This document shows, piece after piece, positions 1,193 to 41,579 of a stretch of 44,017 bases of DNA. Where the stretch lies: the IMG/VR virus record IMGVR_UViG_3300045918_000422, positions 1-44,017 of that record, one strand, 5' to 3'. The position numbers were made by a program, and so were the translations under genes. The stretch's first letter is position 1; every line of letters begins with the position of its first letter. This stretch comes from a virus. The notes below the pieces were generated by a model. That model worked only from the letters and a program-made list of their open reading frames with translations, searched no databases and was not told where the DNA came from.

Positions 1193-1374
1193 TGCGCTAC
1201 ACACGAATAATGACAGGCTTTAGAGAATCAACCAAAGAATGGCTTGCCGAGTTCACATTTGAAAACCGTATTCATTGGCTGTGCTCTCGCTCGACTGCTA
1301 AAACAAAGATAAAGGCTTTTGTAAAAGCAAAAAAAAGATTAATAATCGCTAGACAAACCCACAAAACACGCTAA
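1192..1374 (+). CDS. Small basic hypothetical protein (60 aa)
   Basis: The product begins MRYTRIMTGFRESTKEW and is rich in Lys and Arg towards the C-terminus. Its start overlaps the VRR-NUC stop (TAATG). No family is recognised. The last codons carry the -35/-10 promoter that appears to drive the leader RNA and annealing-protein gene downstream. Confidence 0.6.
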   Translation: MRYTRIMTGFRESTKEWLAEFTFENRIHWLCSRSTAKTKIKAFVKAKKRLIIARQTHKTR

Positions 1375-1377
1375 AAT
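1350..1377 (+). promoter_or_regulatory. Promoter for the annealing-protein leader
   Basis: TAGACA (1350-1355), a 16-base spacer and TAAAAT (1372-1377). The spacer AACCCACAAAACACGC differs by one base from the spacer of the minus-strand promoter at 25520-25547 (TTGACA, TACACT). Both lie in the 3' end of a small gene and both feed a kissing-loop leader. The shared spacer strongly suggests a common origin. Confidence 0.65.
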
Positions 1378-1378
1378 T

Positions 1379-1486
1379 AATCAACCTTTGCAAAATGGTG
1401 GCTAGACCAATCTGCAAAGGTACTGAAAAGAACCCTAAACCTCGCATTGATACACTAGCCTGTATTGATAGCGGGGTTTTTTTATG
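1379..1486 (+). ncRNA. Kissing-loop attenuator leader, copy 1 (annealing-protein gene)
   Basis: Stem P1 CCTTTGCA/TGCAAAGG (1385-1392, 1413-1420) encloses P2 TGGT/ACCA with the six-base loop GGCTAG (1400-1405). After a 17-base linker comes a terminator: AACCTCGC then ATTGATAC (1438-1453) pairs with GTATTGAT and GCGGGGTT (1462-1478), followed by a T run. Its apical loop ACTAGCCT contains CTAGCC (1455-1460), the exact complement of the P2 loop. A Shine-Dalgarno and the ATG at 1502 follow at once. Copies at 25413-25513 and 41380-41500 keep the arrangement with different paired bases. Loop pairing could stabilise or block the terminator; what it senses is unknown. Confidence 0.75.
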
Positions 1487-1501
1487 CACAAAGGAAATAC
1501 A

Positions 1502-2302
1502 ATGACCACAACCGCACTAACCACCACACAAAACCCACAACTGCCCACGCTGGCAGAACTGTACAGCGATAACTTAGAACAAGCTGCCAAGCTAGAACAA
1601 TTCACGCTGCTATTGAATCAACCCCCTAAAGCGGACTGGATTAAAAAACACCCGTTCATTAAAGACTACTGTTACCTTCCCGCCGACAAAATTGAATACC
1701 TGTTAAAAGCCCTGTTCAAAGAATACAAGATTGAAATTACAGGTCAGGGTACGGCGTTTAATGGGGTCTGGGTAACTGTGCGCATAAACTACCGCCACCC
1801 AATAACACAAGAATGGATGTTCCATGACGGTATCGGCGCTGCTCAACTACAAACCGCAAAAGGCACAAGCCCTGCTGACCTTGCCAATATCAACAATGGC
1901 GCGTTAAGTATGGCATTCCCTATTGCCAAAACAGTCGCAATAAAAGACGCTGCTGACCATTTCGGAACTCTGTTTGGTGCTAACGTGAACCGTAAAGACA
2001 CTGTCAATTATGGTGCTGACCAATCGCTATTGCCTCCTGAACCGCTTAACCCTGATTACATTGCAGAATGTGCCGATTATTTCAAAACAAACCCAACTGA
2101 CTACGCGGGATTGGCTGGAATAATTGACACATTATCACCTGAATATTTAATCGAGACAGTGACCGCGTGTGTGCGTAACATCACGGCGATAGAAACCCTG
2201 TCAGGCATTGCCGCCGAATTAAACAAAAAACCAGAAACAAAAGCTAAGTTTATGCAGGTTCGCAACTTGTTTACTGAACGCAAAATTGCGCTTGGTGGCT
2301 AA
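1502..2302 (+). CDS. Rad52-like single-strand annealing protein
   Basis: A 266-residue protein. ATG 1502 is chosen over the in-frame ATG 1484 because AAAGGA lies just upstream and 1484 falls at the terminator T run. Residues about 45-165 read WIKKHPFIKDYCYLPADKIE, then ALFKEYKIEI, VTVRINYRHPITQEWMFHDG and IAKTVAIKDAADHFGTLFG. This is the pattern I associate with phage Rad52/22-type annealing proteins, which coat single strands made by a partner exonuclease and pair them. The exonuclease and SSB genes follow directly, a standard recombination trio. The family name is recall; the context makes the role fairly secure. Expression is probably controlled by the upstream attenuator. Confidence 0.75.
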   Translation: MTTTALTTTQNPQLPTLAELYSDNLEQAAKLEQFTLLLNQPPKADWIKKHPFIKDYCYLPADKIEYLLKALFKEYKIEITGQGTAFNGVWVTVRINYRHPITQEWMFHDGIGAAQLQTAKGTSPADLANINNGALSMAFPIAKTVAIKDAADHFGTLFGANVNRKDTVNYGADQSLLPPEPLNPDYIAECADYFKTNPTDYAGLAGIIDTLSPEYLIETVTACVRNITAIETLSGIAAELNKKPETKAKFMQVRNLFTERKIALGG

Positions 2303-4934: not shown

Positions 4935-4962
4935 TTGACAATAGACTAAAAAAGGTTAAACT
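4935..4962 (+). promoter_or_regulatory. Rightward promoter for the 5.0-7.1 kb cluster
   Basis: TTGACA (4935-4940), a 16-base spacer and TAAACT (4957-4962). The consensus -35 abuts the third operator repeat, so binding there should affect both divergent promoters. The transcript would start near 4970 and meet the hairpin and terminator at 4980-5028. Confidence 0.65.
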
Positions 4963-4979
4963 AACCACGAATTAAAAAA

Positions 4980-5028
4980 TTGAACTCCTAAAGGTTCAAC
5001 CACTAGCCCACCGTAGTGGGCATTTTTT
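4980..5028 (+). terminator. Leader hairpin and intrinsic terminator before 5047
   Basis: TTGAAC/GTTCAA (4980-4985, 4994-4999) is followed by GCCCAC-CGTA-GTGGGC (5006-5021) and six Ts. The alternative stem CCACTA/TAGTGG (5000-5005, 5014-5019) overlaps the terminator and excludes it. Placed between promoter and first gene, this looks like an attenuator. Its loops do not complement each other, so it is not a member of the kissing-loop family. Confidence 0.7.
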
Positions 5029-13156: not shown

Positions 13157-13797
13157 ACTTTTTCACCTTTTGACAGTTTCGACATAAGCGTATTTTGTGC
13201 GGTATCGGCTTCGTCCATTGTCATAATCATAGGACGTTGAAAGTCCAGTATAACGCCGTTTTGCATTGCGCTATGTTCGCCCTCGCTTGCGTCACGCATA
13301 GCCACTAATACGCAATTGTCATAAATAAACAACGGGGTATAAACAACAAATAACCCGCCCTGTGCCTTGTGGCTGTTGAGTGAGCTTATCAGGTTAGTCA
13401 TTGTTTGAGCGCGGGACTCCGTGCGATTGATTGCACTAGCAGGGCAGTACATAAGCAATGATACGTTTATAGGCTGTTCAACTATCGCATTTCCCGCCGT
13501 TGCACTGTTAGCGAACGGGTATGATGCAACTGTGGACTGCATAAATGTACTGCCCTGAACGACTTTAAAATGTGCAAAATAACCAGCGGGTGTAAGCGGG
13601 TAGCCTTGTTGCTGTGTGAGTTGCACAATTGGCATAAGCTTATCGGGTAGCTTTTCAGCCAAGCCATTTTTTAACAAAATAGGGCATAGAACGTGCTTAA
13701 ATTCAAACTCGTTACGCGCTGCCATATTAAGCATATTCTGTTGATTTACCGCACTAACCACCCCGCCGATGATATTCGCTACACCGTTTATGTTCAT
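13153..13797 (-). CDS. Tail protein downstream of the tape measure (Dit/adaptor-like)
   Basis: A 214-residue protein. The N-terminal 40 residues are small and polar (NIIGGVVSAVNQQNMLNMAA), followed by a beta-rich body with QPINVSLLMYCPASAINRTE and GGLFVVYTPLFIYDNCVLVA. It is coupled to tape measure and plug genes by 4-base overlaps. By position it is probably the distal tail or baseplate adaptor. The family is not recognised with certainty. Confidence 0.6.
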   Translation of the reverse strand: MNINGVANIIGGVVSAVNQQNMLNMAARNEFEFKHVLCPILLKNGLAEKLPDKLMPIVQLTQQQGYPLTPAGYFAHFKVVQGSTFMQSTVASYPFANSATAGNAIVEQPINVSLLMYCPASAINRTESRAQTMTNLISSLNSHKAQGGLFVVYTPLFIYDNCVLVAMRDASEGEHSAMQNGVILDFQRPMIMTMDEADTAQNTLMSKLSKGEKV

Positions 13798-16151
13798 AAT
13801 GTGCTCGCCGATGTTATGGCACTACCGCCAGTGCTGTTGTTTATCTCAAGTTTCATGGTTCGTCCTTGTTGCATATCATAACCGCCTTGTGATTTTTGGA
13901 ACATAACAGACTGACTTTGTGGCTTTTCTGGCTGGCTTTGGTAATCTCGCTTAACAGTAATCAACTTGCCTTCATTGTCTTTTTTAGTGACAAATGGGCT
14001 GCCTTTGTAATCAGATTGACTACCTAGTGCGCTGTTTAACTTTGCGTAGTAGTTAGCCTCGCGGGTATGATGTGACTGATATTTAGGGTCATCATAACGC
14101 CATTTAACGTACCCTTTACCCAATTGTCGGCTTCCCGTTTGATAGTCTACGTTTTTATTTTCCATAAAATTGCCGATACCTTTGTACTGTCCGCTGTTTA
14201 GTTCATCAACACTAAATCTCGCTTGTTCGTCTAACGCCGCCTGACTGCGTTCGATTTTGCCATTTTTCATCAAGCCTTTTTCTTCAAGCCGTTTACGCAA
14301 TGCTGTACCGCGCGAGCCTTGCCACGACAAAAAACCTGTATTGGTCGCTTTGTTGTGCGGGTCTGTGTGGCTACCAAAAAGATACTTATTTGCATAATCG
14401 TTTTCTCGCCCCACTTCCGATGTCATCACCTTGGCTTGTTTATCGCTTAATCCAGCTTTTCGATAAGCCTCATAAACGCTCTTCATGTTTTGCTTTTGGT
14501 CGCCACCCATGCGAATGTCACCGCTAGGTGTATAAGTCTGGTTCGTTTGAATGGCTTCTGCCGTATCGGTTACAACATCCCCCGCTATCTTTTGCGTTTT
14601 TGTCCATACTTCCGTCATTACATCCTTGAATTTATTACCCAAAGCATTAACAAAACTGCCTTGTCTATCAGATTCGGCTTTTTTGTATTCTTCAGCACTA
14701 ATCGGTTTACCCTGTGCTTTTATCGCTTTCTCGCTGTTAGCGGTATAGGTAGCTATTTGCTTTTGCGCCGCTAGTGCATCTTTGTCACCAAATAACGCCG
14801 CGATACCGCCGACTAATTCCTGAGTCCATTCCTGATTCTCTGGCGTGTCGTTTTGATAGGCATTATAACCAACATAACCGCCTGCCGCTGCTGCTCCTGC
14901 CAACGGTAAAGCCACACCACCGACTAACGAACCTGCCGCGCCTGCCGCAAGAACACCACCGCCCACCGCTGCCGCGCCTGCCATTGCTTTTTCTGGCGTG
15001 ACTGAACCTATCCACGCCGCAAATGCACCAATAGCCGCCGCCGCTTCCTTAATGTGCGTAACCAGGTTTTTAAAATCTTCCTCGGCTTCTTTGCTTGTTA
15101 GATACTTACTAAATCGAGTAATGCCATCGGCTAAACCGTCAATTAAAGGCTCTAACTTGCCAGACATCATAAGCTTTTCAAAAGCACTTCCCACCGCTTC
15201 ACTAAATCGGGTTAATGCTGGGGCTAAAGGCTCTAAGCCTTTCATAAATGTGTTTTCTGCTTGCTGCTTAAACCGTTCCCATTGGCTGTCTAGGTCTTGA
15301 TAACTCTTAAGTGTTGAGTCACTGACTGCCAATAATTTAGCGTCATTAGCATAGCGTTTTTGCATTGCCTGAAATTCAGAATCTGACATTTCCATCATGC
15401 GCTGTCTATCTTCTGAGCTTGTAAAACTGTCCATACCGTAGGCTTTAGCCACGTTTTCACGCTGTGCCTGTGGGACTGCTTTTAATGTACTACGGATTTT
15501 TTCCAGCACTTCGGGCAATAGCTCACTGGCTTTTTTGCCCTCCTGCCCTTGAATGCCTAACGCGCTAAATTTCCATGCCTGGCTAACATCGGTTTGACTT
15601 TCGCGAATTGCACTAAGTGATTGATCTGGACTACCCAGAAGTTTTGAGTAATTGATTCTTGCGGATTGCATTGCGCCTGAGCTAATGCCAAGCCCCATGC
15701 TTTGAAAGCGGGTTTGACTTGCATCATTAGCAAGTTTGTTCATTCCAAACGCGCCCGCGCCTGTGGCTAAACCGCCCGCAATACTGGCGAATTTAGCTAA
15801 ACCAACTCCCGCGCTTATGATGGTAGAGCCTATCTCTTTCCATCGTTTGAGCATATCAATATCGGTTTTTTTGCGGTCTGCTGCGTTCTTTCTGCGCTTG
15901 TCATCTTCCTTTTTTTCAAAGGTTGATAGCTTTGCCTGTTCGGCTGTTTGTGCGGTTAAAGCGGTTAAGGTTTCGTTAGCGTTATCGGCAATAGACGCGC
16001 CCGTGTCCACTGCGTTTGACATTTCATCATTGGCAGTTTTCCAGGCGTCGGGAGCTTCAGCTAAGGCTTTTTGATATTCGTCATAAAGGCTTTTAAACGC
16101 TTTGAATGAGTCGTCTTTGACATCAACTTCGATAATTGATTTTACTGCCAT
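13794..16151 (-). CDS. Tape measure protein with a lysozyme-like domain
   Basis: A 785-residue protein. It begins MAVKSIIEVDVKDDSFKAF, then has coiled-coil regions and Gly/Ala-rich hydrophobic spans at about 370-430 (GAAAVGGGVLAAGAAGSLVG). Residues about 565-700 resemble the phage tail lysozyme/muramidase domain: VYEAYRKAGLSDKQAKVMTS, EVGRENDYANKYLFGS and FLSWQGSRGTALRKRL, with a possible catalytic Glu in TSEVGREN. It sets tail length and would open peptidoglycan at infection. It follows the frameshifted chaperone genes directly. This is the only lysozyme-like region seen in the genome. Confidence 0.85.
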   Translation of the reverse strand: MAVKSIIEVDVKDDSFKAFKSLYDEYQKALAEAPDAWKTANDEMSNAVDTGASIADNANETLTALTAQTAEQAKLSTFEKKEDDKRRKNAADRKKTDIDMLKRWKEIGSTIISAGVGLAKFASIAGGLATGAGAFGMNKLANDASQTRFQSMGLGISSGAMQSARINYSKLLGSPDQSLSAIRESQTDVSQAWKFSALGIQGQEGKKASELLPEVLEKIRSTLKAVPQAQRENVAKAYGMDSFTSSEDRQRMMEMSDSEFQAMQKRYANDAKLLAVSDSTLKSYQDLDSQWERFKQQAENTFMKGLEPLAPALTRFSEAVGSAFEKLMMSGKLEPLIDGLADGITRFSKYLTSKEAEEDFKNLVTHIKEAAAAIGAFAAWIGSVTPEKAMAGAAAVGGGVLAAGAAGSLVGGVALPLAGAAAAGGYVGYNAYQNDTPENQEWTQELVGGIAALFGDKDALAAQKQIATYTANSEKAIKAQGKPISAEEYKKAESDRQGSFVNALGNKFKDVMTEVWTKTQKIAGDVVTDTAEAIQTNQTYTPSGDIRMGGDQKQNMKSVYEAYRKAGLSDKQAKVMTSEVGRENDYANKYLFGSHTDPHNKATNTGFLSWQGSRGTALRKRLEEKGLMKNGKIERSQAALDEQARFSVDELNSGQYKGIGNFMENKNVDYQTGSRQLGKGYVKWRYDDPKYQSHHTREANYYAKLNSALGSQSDYKGSPFVTKKDNEGKLITVKRDYQSQPEKPQSQSVMFQKSQGGYDMQQGRTMKLEINNSTGGSAITSASTL

Positions 16152-25128: not shown

Positions 25129-25401
25129 TCAATCCTTAATATATTTTATGGAACTGCAACAAGAGTCAATTTCATATCGCCCTGTTCTTGTTTCTCTGTC
25201 TGATGGAATCACATAAACGTCATCCATACTTACATTGCAATATCTATCATCGCGCTTCTTTAAGCGTGATACAAAAGATTTTGCTTTGTGTACAGCGTAA
25301 CATCTTTTTTCAGCGTCTACTGAGTGTATATGACTATATTTTGTCCCGTCACCGCCGCGCATTAGTGATTCGGGCAGTAAAATAAAAACGTCCCATTTCA
25401 T
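25129..25401 (-). CDS. First protein of the insert, directly under attenuator copy 2 (90 aa)
   Basis: The protein begins MKWDVFILLPESLMRGGDGT and contains basic and Cys-bearing stretches (KRCYAVHKAKSFVSRLKKRD, EIDSCCSSIKYIKD). TTGAGGA supplies a strong ribosome-binding site immediately after the terminator T run. No family is recognised. Its dedicated leader and promoter indicate regulation separate from the late operon around it. Confidence 0.65.
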   Translation of the reverse strand: MKWDVFILLPESLMRGGDGTKYSHIHSVDAEKRCYAVHKAKSFVSRLKKRDDRYCNVSMDDVYVIPSDRETRTGRYEIDSCCSSIKYIKD

Positions 25402-25412
25402 AAATAATCCTC

Positions 25413-25513
25413 AACAAAAAACCCGCTCAAACTGCGGTAACAGTAAGGCGGGTTCTTCATAAATCACGGGAAGTAATTTTTAAATTCGTGTTACCGCACA
25501 TATTTAAAAATCT
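25413..25513 (-). ncRNA. Kissing-loop attenuator leader, copy 2 (insert operon)
   Basis: Read on the minus strand, P1 ATTTTTAAAT/ATTTAAAAAT (25511-25502, 25485-25476) encloses P2 GTG/CAC with the six-base loop CGGTAA (25496-25491). After a linker, the terminator stem AACCCGC/GCGGGTT (25454-25448, 25426-25420) holds inner stem ACTG/CAGT with loop TTACCG (25440-25435), the exact complement. A T run, TTGAGGA and ATG 25401 follow. The extended complement TGCGGTAACA/TGTTACCGCA (10 bp) could instead form an antiterminator. Copies 1 and 3 have the same layout with other bases. Confidence 0.78.
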
Positions 25514-25517
25514 GTGG

Positions 25518-25640
25518 TTAGTGTAGCGCGTTTTGTGGGTTTGTCAATAGTTCATCGCGCTGTTGTTCGGTTATCGCGCCCTGGTGGTATGCATTCCACA
25601 CAGCCGCTATGTAGTCGGGGTTTGTTCTGAGGTCTGGCAT
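25518..25640 (-). CDS. Small hypothetical protein (40 aa)
   Basis: The product begins MPDLRTNPDYIAAVWNAYHQ and ends LTNPQNALH. AGGA lies seven bases before ATG 25640, and it starts 9 bases after the upstream virion-protein gene. It is helical and acidic; no family is recognised. The promoter of the insert lies inside its 3' end. Confidence 0.65.
   Translation of the reverse strand: MPDLRTNPDYIAAVWNAYHQGAITEQQRDELLTNPQNALH
25520..25547 (-). promoter_or_regulatory. Promoter of the insert operon
   Basis: On the minus strand TTGACA (25547-25542), a 16-base spacer and TACACT (25525-25520). The spacer AACCCACAAAACGCGC matches that of the promoter at 1350-1377 except for one base. The start would fall near 25513, the beginning of the kissing-loop leader. 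Confidence 0.7.
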
Positions 25641-40388: not shown

Positions 40389-41363
40389 CTAAAAATTAAT
40401 AACAAGGTTTGCCAATTTTCCAGCAATCGCCGCTTTTACTACGTCAACCGCTTTCTGTTCAGTCAGTCCGCATTCAGACATTAACGCATTTTTAACAGCC
40501 GTTTTTACCGCTGTACGGTGTGCCGTGTCTGCTTTGCGCTTGTATTCAATCGCTTGCAATCTGTCTTGCTCCGCTTTTGCCCGTGCTTTTTCGCGTTCAA
40601 CAGCTGCCGCTTTTTCGCGTTCAGCGCGTTCTTTGGCTTGTTGCTCCCGAAGTTCAGCACGTTCTTTTTCTAGCCGTGCATTTTCAATTGCCAGTTTTGC
40701 CGCTTGTTCAGCTTGTTGTTTTTCACGTTCAGCGCGTTCGATTGCCGCTTTTTGTTTTGCCCGTTCATCGGCTATGGCTTGCTGTTTTATGCGCGCTTCG
40801 CGTTCAGCTTGTTCTTTTGCCGCTTGTTCAGCGCGTTCTTTGGCTTCGCGTTCGGCTTGTTCTTTTGCTTTTGCCGCTGCGATTTCTGCCTGTTGTTTTT
40901 CAACGTCAAATTTGAGATTAAGCAATAAAGCAAATTCATGATCCGATTGATATTGCCGTTCAGCTTCTTCACGTTCGGCTTTTAATCGTTCAGCTTCCTT
41001 CCTGTCTTCTTCTTTTTTTGTTTCTGCTGCTTCCCACTCGTCAAGCTTTAATCTTACTGTTTTTTGCAGTGCGTCCAAAAAGTCCTTAGCTTTTTTACGG
41101 CTTGCATCAATCATTTTGGGAATTTCTTTTTGCTTGTCCGCTAAAGCTTTCCCCTCTTTTTCGATTCGGCTTTTAGCTTGGGCTACTTTGTACGCATTAC
41201 TTGCGATAACCTCACGCCCTTTTTTTGTCTCTACGTCAGCAACAAGCGATAAAGCCTCGGATTCGATTTGCTTTAGCAAAATATCCAGCGCGTCTGTCTC
41301 TCCTGTGAATACTGCTAATGCGTTTTGTTGGATTGTTTCCAATGTTATTAAATCTTTGCTCAT
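40389..41363 (-). CDS. Long coiled-coil protein (324 aa)
   Basis: An N-terminal domain of about 110 residues (SKDLITLETIQQNALAVFTG, GREVIASNAYKVAQAKSRIE) precedes about 170 residues of Lys/Glu/Ala-rich coiled coil, and a C-terminal helical domain (ALMSECGLTEQKAVDVVKAA). I recall similar proteins in many phage early regions without a settled function; DNA recombination or host-nuclease inhibition has been suggested for some. It is the first gene after attenuator copy 3, with TTGGAG in front. Confidence 0.7.
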   Translation of the reverse strand: MSKDLITLETIQQNALAVFTGETDALDILLKQIESEALSLVADVETKKGREVIASNAYKVAQAKSRIEKEGKALADKQKEIPKMIDASRKKAKDFLDALQKTVRLKLDEWEAAETKKEEDRKEAERLKAEREEAERQYQSDHEFALLLNLKFDVEKQQAEIAAAKAKEQAEREAKERAEQAAKEQAEREARIKQQAIADERAKQKAAIERAEREKQQAEQAAKLAIENARLEKERAELREQQAKERAEREKAAAVEREKARAKAEQDRLQAIEYKRKADTAHRTAVKTAVKNALMSECGLTEQKAVDVVKAAIAGKLANLVINF

Positions 41364-41379
41364 TTTTTTCTAAACTCCA

Positions 41380-41500
41380 AAAAAAAACCCGCTTCGACTG
41401 GTGGGAATCAGTCAAAACAGGTTTCTTAAATAAAACACTGGAGTGCTTTAAAAATTACAGTTCCCACACTGCTTTTTAAAACACTCTGAATTGTGGCTTT
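41380..41500 (-). ncRNA. Kissing-loop attenuator leader, copy 3 (coiled-coil gene)
   Basis: On the minus strand P1 GAGTG plus TTTTAAAAA pairs with TTTTTAAAG plus CACTC (41486-41473, 41454-41441). It encloses P2 CAGT/ACTG with the six-base loop GTGGGA (41467-41462). The terminator AAACCTG/CGGGTTT (41424-41418, 41391-41385) holds GACTG/CAGTC around loop ATTCCCAC, whose TCCCAC (41406-41401) is the exact complement of the P2 loop. A nine-T run, TTGGAG and ATG 41363 follow. Four of the six loop pairs differ from copy 2, all compensated. Confidence 0.78.
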
Positions 41501-41551: not shown

Positions 41552-41579
41552 ATTTTAATCTATTTTGTCAGACTGTCAA
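41552..41579 (-). promoter_or_regulatory. Promoter of the leftward 41.4-38.0 kb cluster
   Basis: On the minus strand TTGACA (41579-41574), a 16-base spacer and TAAAAT (41557-41552). Two TGACA half-sites (TTGACAGTCTGACA) overlap the -35, similar to the arms of the operator array at 34.4 kb. Transcription would begin near 41545. Confidence 0.75.

Follow-up and report, generated by a model that had tools for sequence, protein, structure and literature searches.

We identified a group of phage leaders in which the loop of a 5′ hairpin is complementary to the apical loop of a downstream intrinsic terminator, and we conclude that they form a new, sequence-free family of kissing-loop attenuators, whose direction of effect and signal we infer below. 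Terminator-based attenuators are already known; the novelty lies in a kiss that is free of any particular sequence. The founding examples lie in a 44,017-nucleotide viral sequence (IMG/VR record IMGVR_UViG_3300045918_000422; this whole stretch is hereafter called the window), and leaders of the same layout precede replication and homing endonuclease genes in other phages.

In three window leaders a hairpin loop is complementary to a terminator loop

A sequence-only reading of the window had described three leaders, each with a hairpin and then an intrinsic terminator carrying the exact complement of the hairpin loop (GGCTAG/CTAGCC, CGGTAA/TTACCG and GTGGGA/TCCCAC). All three proved real: unguided scans of the window recover every copy, and a scan under lax rules returned the three copies plus a few weak matches of a kind also seen in shuffled sequence. 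Beneath the inner stem, P2, we found a second, longer stem, P1, that the reading had lacked. The constant loop length of six that it reported held for loop 1 in all three copies but not for the terminator loops, which measure 6, 6 and 8 nt.

Copy 1 lies on the plus strand behind a σ70-like promoter (TAGACA-16-TAAAAT, 1350..1377). Its 5′ hairpin (1385..1420) consists of P1 (CCTTTGCA at 1385-1392 with TGCAAAGG at 1413-1420), P2 (TGGT at 1396-1399 with ACCA at 1406-1409) and the 6-nt loop 1, GGCTAG (1400-1405). The intrinsic terminator follows at 1439-1477, with a T run at 1477-1483 (1439..1483 in all), and its 6-nt loop, CTAGCC (1455-1460), is the complement of the whole of loop 1. The downstream gene (1484..2302, plus strand), whose true start is probably 1502, preceded by AAAGGA, encodes a putative single-stranded DNA annealing protein with homologues 61-68% identical. 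Its reading frame matches only phrog_15333, a family of unknown function, and the name "annealing protein" is our inference from the YqaJ exonuclease and SSB genes that follow it.

Copy 2, on the minus strand (25511-25416), is weaker than the other two, with a P2 of three pairs plus a wobble. Its promoter (TTGACA-16-TACACT, 25520..25547) is followed by the 5′ hairpin (25476..25511; P1 25511-25502/25485-25476, P2 25500-25497/25490-25487) with the 6-nt loop CGGTAA (25496-25491), and by the terminator (25416..25454) with the 6-nt loop TTACCG (25440-25435) and a T run at 25421-25416. The gene behind it (25129..25401, minus strand) encodes 90 amino acids and belongs to no family. No relatives of this gene, or of the terminase, were found in IMG/VR.

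Copy 3, also on the minus strand (41484-41379), has a 5′ hairpin at 41443..41484 (P1 41484-41473/41454-41443, P2 41472-41468/41461-41457) with the 6-nt loop GTGGGA (41467-41462). Its terminator (41379..41423, a 15-bp stem with a T run at 41387-41379) carries the 8-nt loop ATTCCCAC (41408-41401), which contains TCCCAC (41406-41401). A possible promoter (TTGACA-16-TAAAAT, 41552..41579, minus strand) was read by eye, outside the promoter scans; P1 is about 70 nt downstream of this best match, so the hairpin would not stand at the 5′ end of the RNA. The downstream gene (40389..41363, minus strand) belongs to the TolA-like phage family phrog_1376. In phage Sf6 (NC_005344; L324, 845-873) the orthologue is gene 33, and 12 nt upstream of it the annotated lambda-type terminator tL2A takes the position of copy 3's terminator; unlike the latter, tL2A has no kissing hairpin, and the hairpin is absent from all six gamma-phage orthologues of the gene.

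Copies 1 and 2 use their loops in full, each base of the two 6-nt loops having its partner. The promoters of these two copies have in common a 22-base block, GACAAACCCACAAAACRCGCTA, across the −35/−10 spacer (1350-1373 and, on the minus strand, 25525-25547), perhaps a common operator; the exact block has no match in IMG/VR. Otherwise the window leaders have little in common: AAGAA(A)CC before the terminator, plus GCGGGTTTTTT. A conserved short upstream reading frame was considered and dropped, as it was seen by eye in copies 1 and 2 only and the other leaders inspected have no such ATG. Elsewhere in the window, at 4935-5026, a hairpin and a terminator-like stem with non-complementary loops come after one more promoter-like site, and CGGTAA occurs 36 times across the whole window against 19.4 expected, a count reached by none of 100 shuffles.

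Loop complementarity exceeds chance and covaries

Complementary loops were counted under several rules. A detector that also required a terminator stem gave 43 real matches scoring at least 22, with many differing loop pairs, whereas shuffled sequence yielded none; on this scale copy 1 reaches 28 and copy 3 reaches 42. A second detector made no demand for a T tract and found 104 matches in 2.6 Mb against none in shuffled sequence, and at least five T in eight followed 102 of its 103 strong matches (70 of them distinct), which use more than 20 loop pairs without a common sequence beyond subtypes. Both detectors asked for complementarity, and the alignment columns depend on common descent, so only two lines of evidence are free of selection for the kiss: leaders chosen by fold and a covariance model from which the kiss was left out. 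Among 124 leaders chosen for a promoter box, a two-hairpin minimum-energy fold, a T run and a start codon (some of them near-duplicates), 46 had at least six contiguous complementary loop bases, where dealing loop 2 out anew among the 124 gives 2.6.

The kiss-free covariance model, built from 25 endonuclease-type leaders, found two unseen leaders, one in a cultured phage (L320:14363) with an 8-bp kiss, GTGAGACG/CGTCTCAC, and one in a Flavobacteriales MAG (L341) with a 7-bp kiss, GTCGTGC/GCACGAC. It also recovered L131 and L134, which are absent from its alignment, and the loops are complementary in all four. The weaker matches of the model that we inspected showed no kiss. In alignment A2 (25 leaders) 98.3% of the kiss helix is paired, and its changes are two-sided in 23 cases and one-sided in none. 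Its covariation score of 0.377 falls to 0.073 on shuffling and to 0.01-0.09 on sliding; P1 covaries likewise, as does the upper stem of the terminator. The A2 sequences were picked by a detector needing complementarity, so the fold-only test and the kiss-free model are the cleaner evidence. A single pair of relatives illustrates the same behavior: L022 and L023 are 96% and 92% identical in their flanks and 57% in their leaders, and both loops have changed together (GGTCAG/CTGACC and CGCCAA/TTGGCG).

The proposal that the loop bases change together was thus carried to homologues and survives there. Single 6-mer loop matches do arise in shuffled sequence under lax rules, but an origin of the pairs as chance matches among ordinary terminators, already doubted on the strength of the three window copies, is refuted by the counts (43 against 0, 104 against 0, 46 against 2.6) and by the two-sided covariation, and we give it a negligible probability.

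Leaders recur before replication and homing genes of other phages

Relatives of the copy 1 gene (61-68% identity) lie in IMG/VR contigs with Bacteroidota-type promoters (TANNTTTG), and it is from promoter type that we propose hosts for the metagenomic phages. The leader is present before many of these relatives and absent from some; many of the contigs have the same layout before the annealing gene with another loop pair, GGTCAG/CTGACC, and a second leader, GTGGAG/CTCCAC, before a primase/helicase gene. The window leaders and the Bacteroidota-phage leaders thus hold the same position before a homologous annealing gene and have no common sequence. A scan for relatives of that primase brought in further loci; the improved detector is the one that yielded the 43 matches given above. 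Across 19 whole contigs (661 kb) there are typically one to three leaders per contig, with one match in the shuffled control, and nearly all gene-linked matches have the TANNTTTG box just upstream although it was not required. Carriers and the window have several families in common, namely terminase, YqaJ exonuclease, a methyltransferase/ParB-like protein and the annealing protein.

Searching with a pattern for a single loop pair (TCGTCG) picked out 68 viral contigs, in which the leaders mostly precede homing endonucleases of differing kinds (NUMOD4-HNH, GIY-YIG and others), typed from annotation in the cultured phage and otherwise from motifs read by eye. Among phages from Flavobacterium sp. 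LMO6 and LMO9, 34 records also match the pattern. In one of these phages, vB_FspS_hattifnatt9-1 (L320; NC_048832), the replication operon contains the leader, upstream of the NUMOD4 endonuclease gp41. Leaders of this genome lie at 13310-13394 and 14363-14443, and gp41, with its own promoter and terminator leader, stands amid same-strand replication genes. Promoters, terminators and endonucleases go unmentioned in the paper on these Flavobacterium phages (PMC7077304).

No leader was found in Shewanella phage QDWS, the first 50 kb of Cellulophaga phi38:1, Acinetobacter phage B1251 or the annealing-gene region of a TM7 phage, nor on contig G320, from a relative whose annealing gene shows 81% identity. 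In Flavobacteriales host genomes, 101 kb of NUMOD4 loci contained no convincing leader, and five weak model matches in host genomes (L342-L346) had no convincing kissing leader.

Overall, leaders precede the homologous putative annealing gene, primase/helicase operons and free-standing homing endonucleases. Such contexts bear on whether the element acts in DNA, as paired operators or a recombination site of endonuclease genes that merely resembles RNA hairpins. Its layout is palindromic on both strands and often lies upstream of mobile endonuclease genes, but the order of promoter, hairpin, terminator, T tract and gene is fixed on one strand, the stems covary with G-U pairs included, the T tract is present though not required, and the element also precedes core replication genes, so that a DNA-level element seems to us very improbable.

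Leaders share an anatomy rather than a sequence

P1 usually starts 3-7 nt past the −7 box, at about the first transcribed base, window copy 3 being an exception. An A/U-rich linker (median 18 nt) leads to the terminator, which is ordered as upper stem, internal loop, lower stem and U tract, and the start codon usually lies 10-30 nt downstream of the leader. The leaders thus have the makeup of an intrinsic-terminator attenuator, with a stem and then a U tract between promoter and gene. Loops are mostly of 6 nt, all paired, or of 8 nt, with one 5′ purine and seven paired bases, and in loop 1 G outnumbers C in 18 of the 21 loop types where the two counts differ. Except in L023 and in window copy 2, where it spans 10 bases, complementarity generally does not run past the loops, which favors a loop-loop kiss over a long antiterminator duplex; the alternative long pairing that the sequence-only reading had allowed is therefore disfavored, and an extended duplex was rejected as a candidate. 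A k-turn in the terminator was rejected too, as it fails to hold across leaders.

In 37 of 38 distinct leaders the gene next upstream runs on the leader's own strand, and its stop codon is 2-31 nt ahead of loop 1 in about half of the distinct set. Eighteen contigs carry two or three leaders, and a loop is never repeated within a contig; this is only suggestive of orthogonality, because loop type goes with gene type.

Some subtypes have features of their own. L022, L063, L112 and other GGTCAG leaders have a second CTGAC in the terminator 5′ arm or internal loop, giving loop 1 two possible partners, and this second CTGAC is lost in some relatives (L139). The terminator internal loop reads AGUA/GAAA, resembling a sarcin-ricin (S-turn) motif, in L090, L116, L034, L099, L124 and contig G311, and endonuclease-type leaders have a conserved UGAU/UUGAU internal loop in its place.

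Comparison with known RNAs

Several known RNAs have parts of this layout. The guanidine-II riboswitch has two kissing-loop hairpins with conserved short loops, the ligand being bound in the kiss, and no terminator partner. Kissing hairpins are common to it and the phage leaders, whereas a terminator as one partner occurs in the phage leaders only. TAR-TAR* and ColE1 RNAI-RNAII pair 6-7 nt loops along their whole length between molecules; full loop pairing is alike in the phage leaders, where the pairing is intramolecular and coupled to a terminator. Antitermination leaders of the LoaP/UpxY and lambda types also combine a 5′ leader hairpin, read by a protein, with a downstream terminator, and, unlike the phage leaders, are not known to have loop-loop complementarity.

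The P4 CI and P1 c4 RNAs are leader RNAs with internal complementary segments and premature termination that are processed and act in trans; we know of no kiss between hairpin and terminator loops in them. They provide the precedent for another reading of our leaders, in which the terminated RNA is itself the product, a stable trans-acting small RNA serving, for example, phage immunity as P4 CI RNA does. The stem starting near the predicted transcription start would suit such a product, as would the divergence of the whole leader between the otherwise near-identical phages L022 and L023. The loop, however, is already satisfied in cis, the element lies directly before a gene, and the Rfam model of C4 antisense RNA (P4 CI) matched none of the leaders scanned; we hold a trans-acting product to be improbable.

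The closest relative in layout is the guanidine-IV (GGAM-1/mepA) riboswitch, for which a kiss between the 5′ hairpin and the terminator hairpin has been proposed with ligand, and in which ligand raises read-through (PMC7736828, PMC11611296). It shares with the phage leaders a 5′ hairpin, linker and intrinsic terminator, a length of about 100 nt and a kiss within the termination decision. It differs in its near-invariant guanidine-binding loop bases (about 97%) and its place before sugE-type genes, whereas the phage leaders have no conserved loop bases and serve phage replication and homing genes. Complementarity and covariation point to kissing of hairpin and terminator loops in the phage leaders as well; the conserved loop nucleotides that define guanidine-IV are missing from more than 20 loop pairs without a common sequence, which places the phage leaders outside that class. 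The structure of guanidine-II is cited in the same work (PMC7736828).

Rfam 15 gave no match in the window at the gathering threshold, and none at 11 other loci with E up to 1-5; among the models unmatched at leader-bearing loci is guanidine-IV (E up to 1-5). No published description was found in the full-text literature outside subscription papers, preprints and supplements. The number of loop pairs, the T tracts that no rule demanded and the lack of Rfam matches lend strong support to the suggestion that the window leaders belong to a new phage RNA family whose loop pairs covary.

A kiss that may decide between termination and read-through

From sequence we have two predicted hairpins, fully complementary loops, covariation, a T tract, a nearby promoter and a position before phage genes. 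We think it fairly probable that the leaders are cis-acting transcription attenuators of one structural family, in which the presence of the kiss decides between termination and read-through. Placed after a promoter and ahead of a start codon, a terminator would be pointless unless conditional, and the kissing hairpin, the only other conserved part, is its likely controller; this is why we take the kiss to act on termination. Hairpin 1 would fold upon leaving RNA polymerase, and its loop of 6-8 nt would capture the apical loop of the terminator before the terminator 3′ arm is made, yielding an intramolecular loop-loop (kissing) complex. Whether the kiss is present or absent at the U tract would then decide between a terminated leader RNA of about 90 nt and read-through into the gene 10-30 nt downstream. 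Differing loops would let each leader pair with itself alone.

By analogy with guanidine-IV, whose kissing loop is proposed to open the terminator, the kiss would favor read-through, the likelier of the two signs. The sign may be reversed: the kiss would then nucleate and stabilize a terminator that is weak and internally looped, and the gene would be switched on when a ribosome or some factor masks hairpin 1. Many leaders have an upper terminator stem of only 3-5 bp, set off by the internal loop, so that a kiss of 6-7 bp would help it close; linker length suffices in most leaders, and in about half of the distinct leaders a ribosome at the upstream stop codon could mask hairpin 1. The terminator stems of copies 1 and 3 (15-16 bp) need no such help, and the only tested RNA of this architecture, guanidine-IV, works the other way (PMC7736828, PMC11611296), which leaves a terminating kiss rather unlikely in our estimate. 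The same strong stems speak against a kiss that promotes read-through, as one of 6 bp could hardly open them. A straight stack needs the linker at a median of about 0.8 of its full extension, linker lengths being distorted by spurious pairs, and at this borderline geometry, which favors neither sign, the kiss and the full terminator may just coexist.

As for the signal, a structure-specific protein, a ribosome on the upstream gene, or polymerase speed or Mg2+ are likelier than a small ligand, because the loops have no conserved bases. No ligand pocket was found in the leaders and no small regulator gene common to the carriers and the window, and upstream sequence had no systematic masking effect on P1 folding (p = 0.28).

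Implications for phage gene control

We tentatively put forward a broader possibility, a class of RNA switch that is free of sequence, in which the match between two loops is the only conserved information. Each promoter would have a distinct self-matching pair, several identical devices could operate together free of cross-talk, and mobile endonuclease genes would take the device along in their cassettes. Because they are built on conserved bases and nested pairing, standard RNA-family searches miss devices defined by a loop-loop match alone; the kissing-loop leader is common in phages and absent from Rfam. Its carriers include cultured Flavobacterium phages, so the leader is open to experiment now. 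Such a device would give phage biology a widespread attenuator, would account for the way in which homing endonuclease genes arrive with control of their own, and would offer synthetic biology a set of naturally diversified loop pairs.
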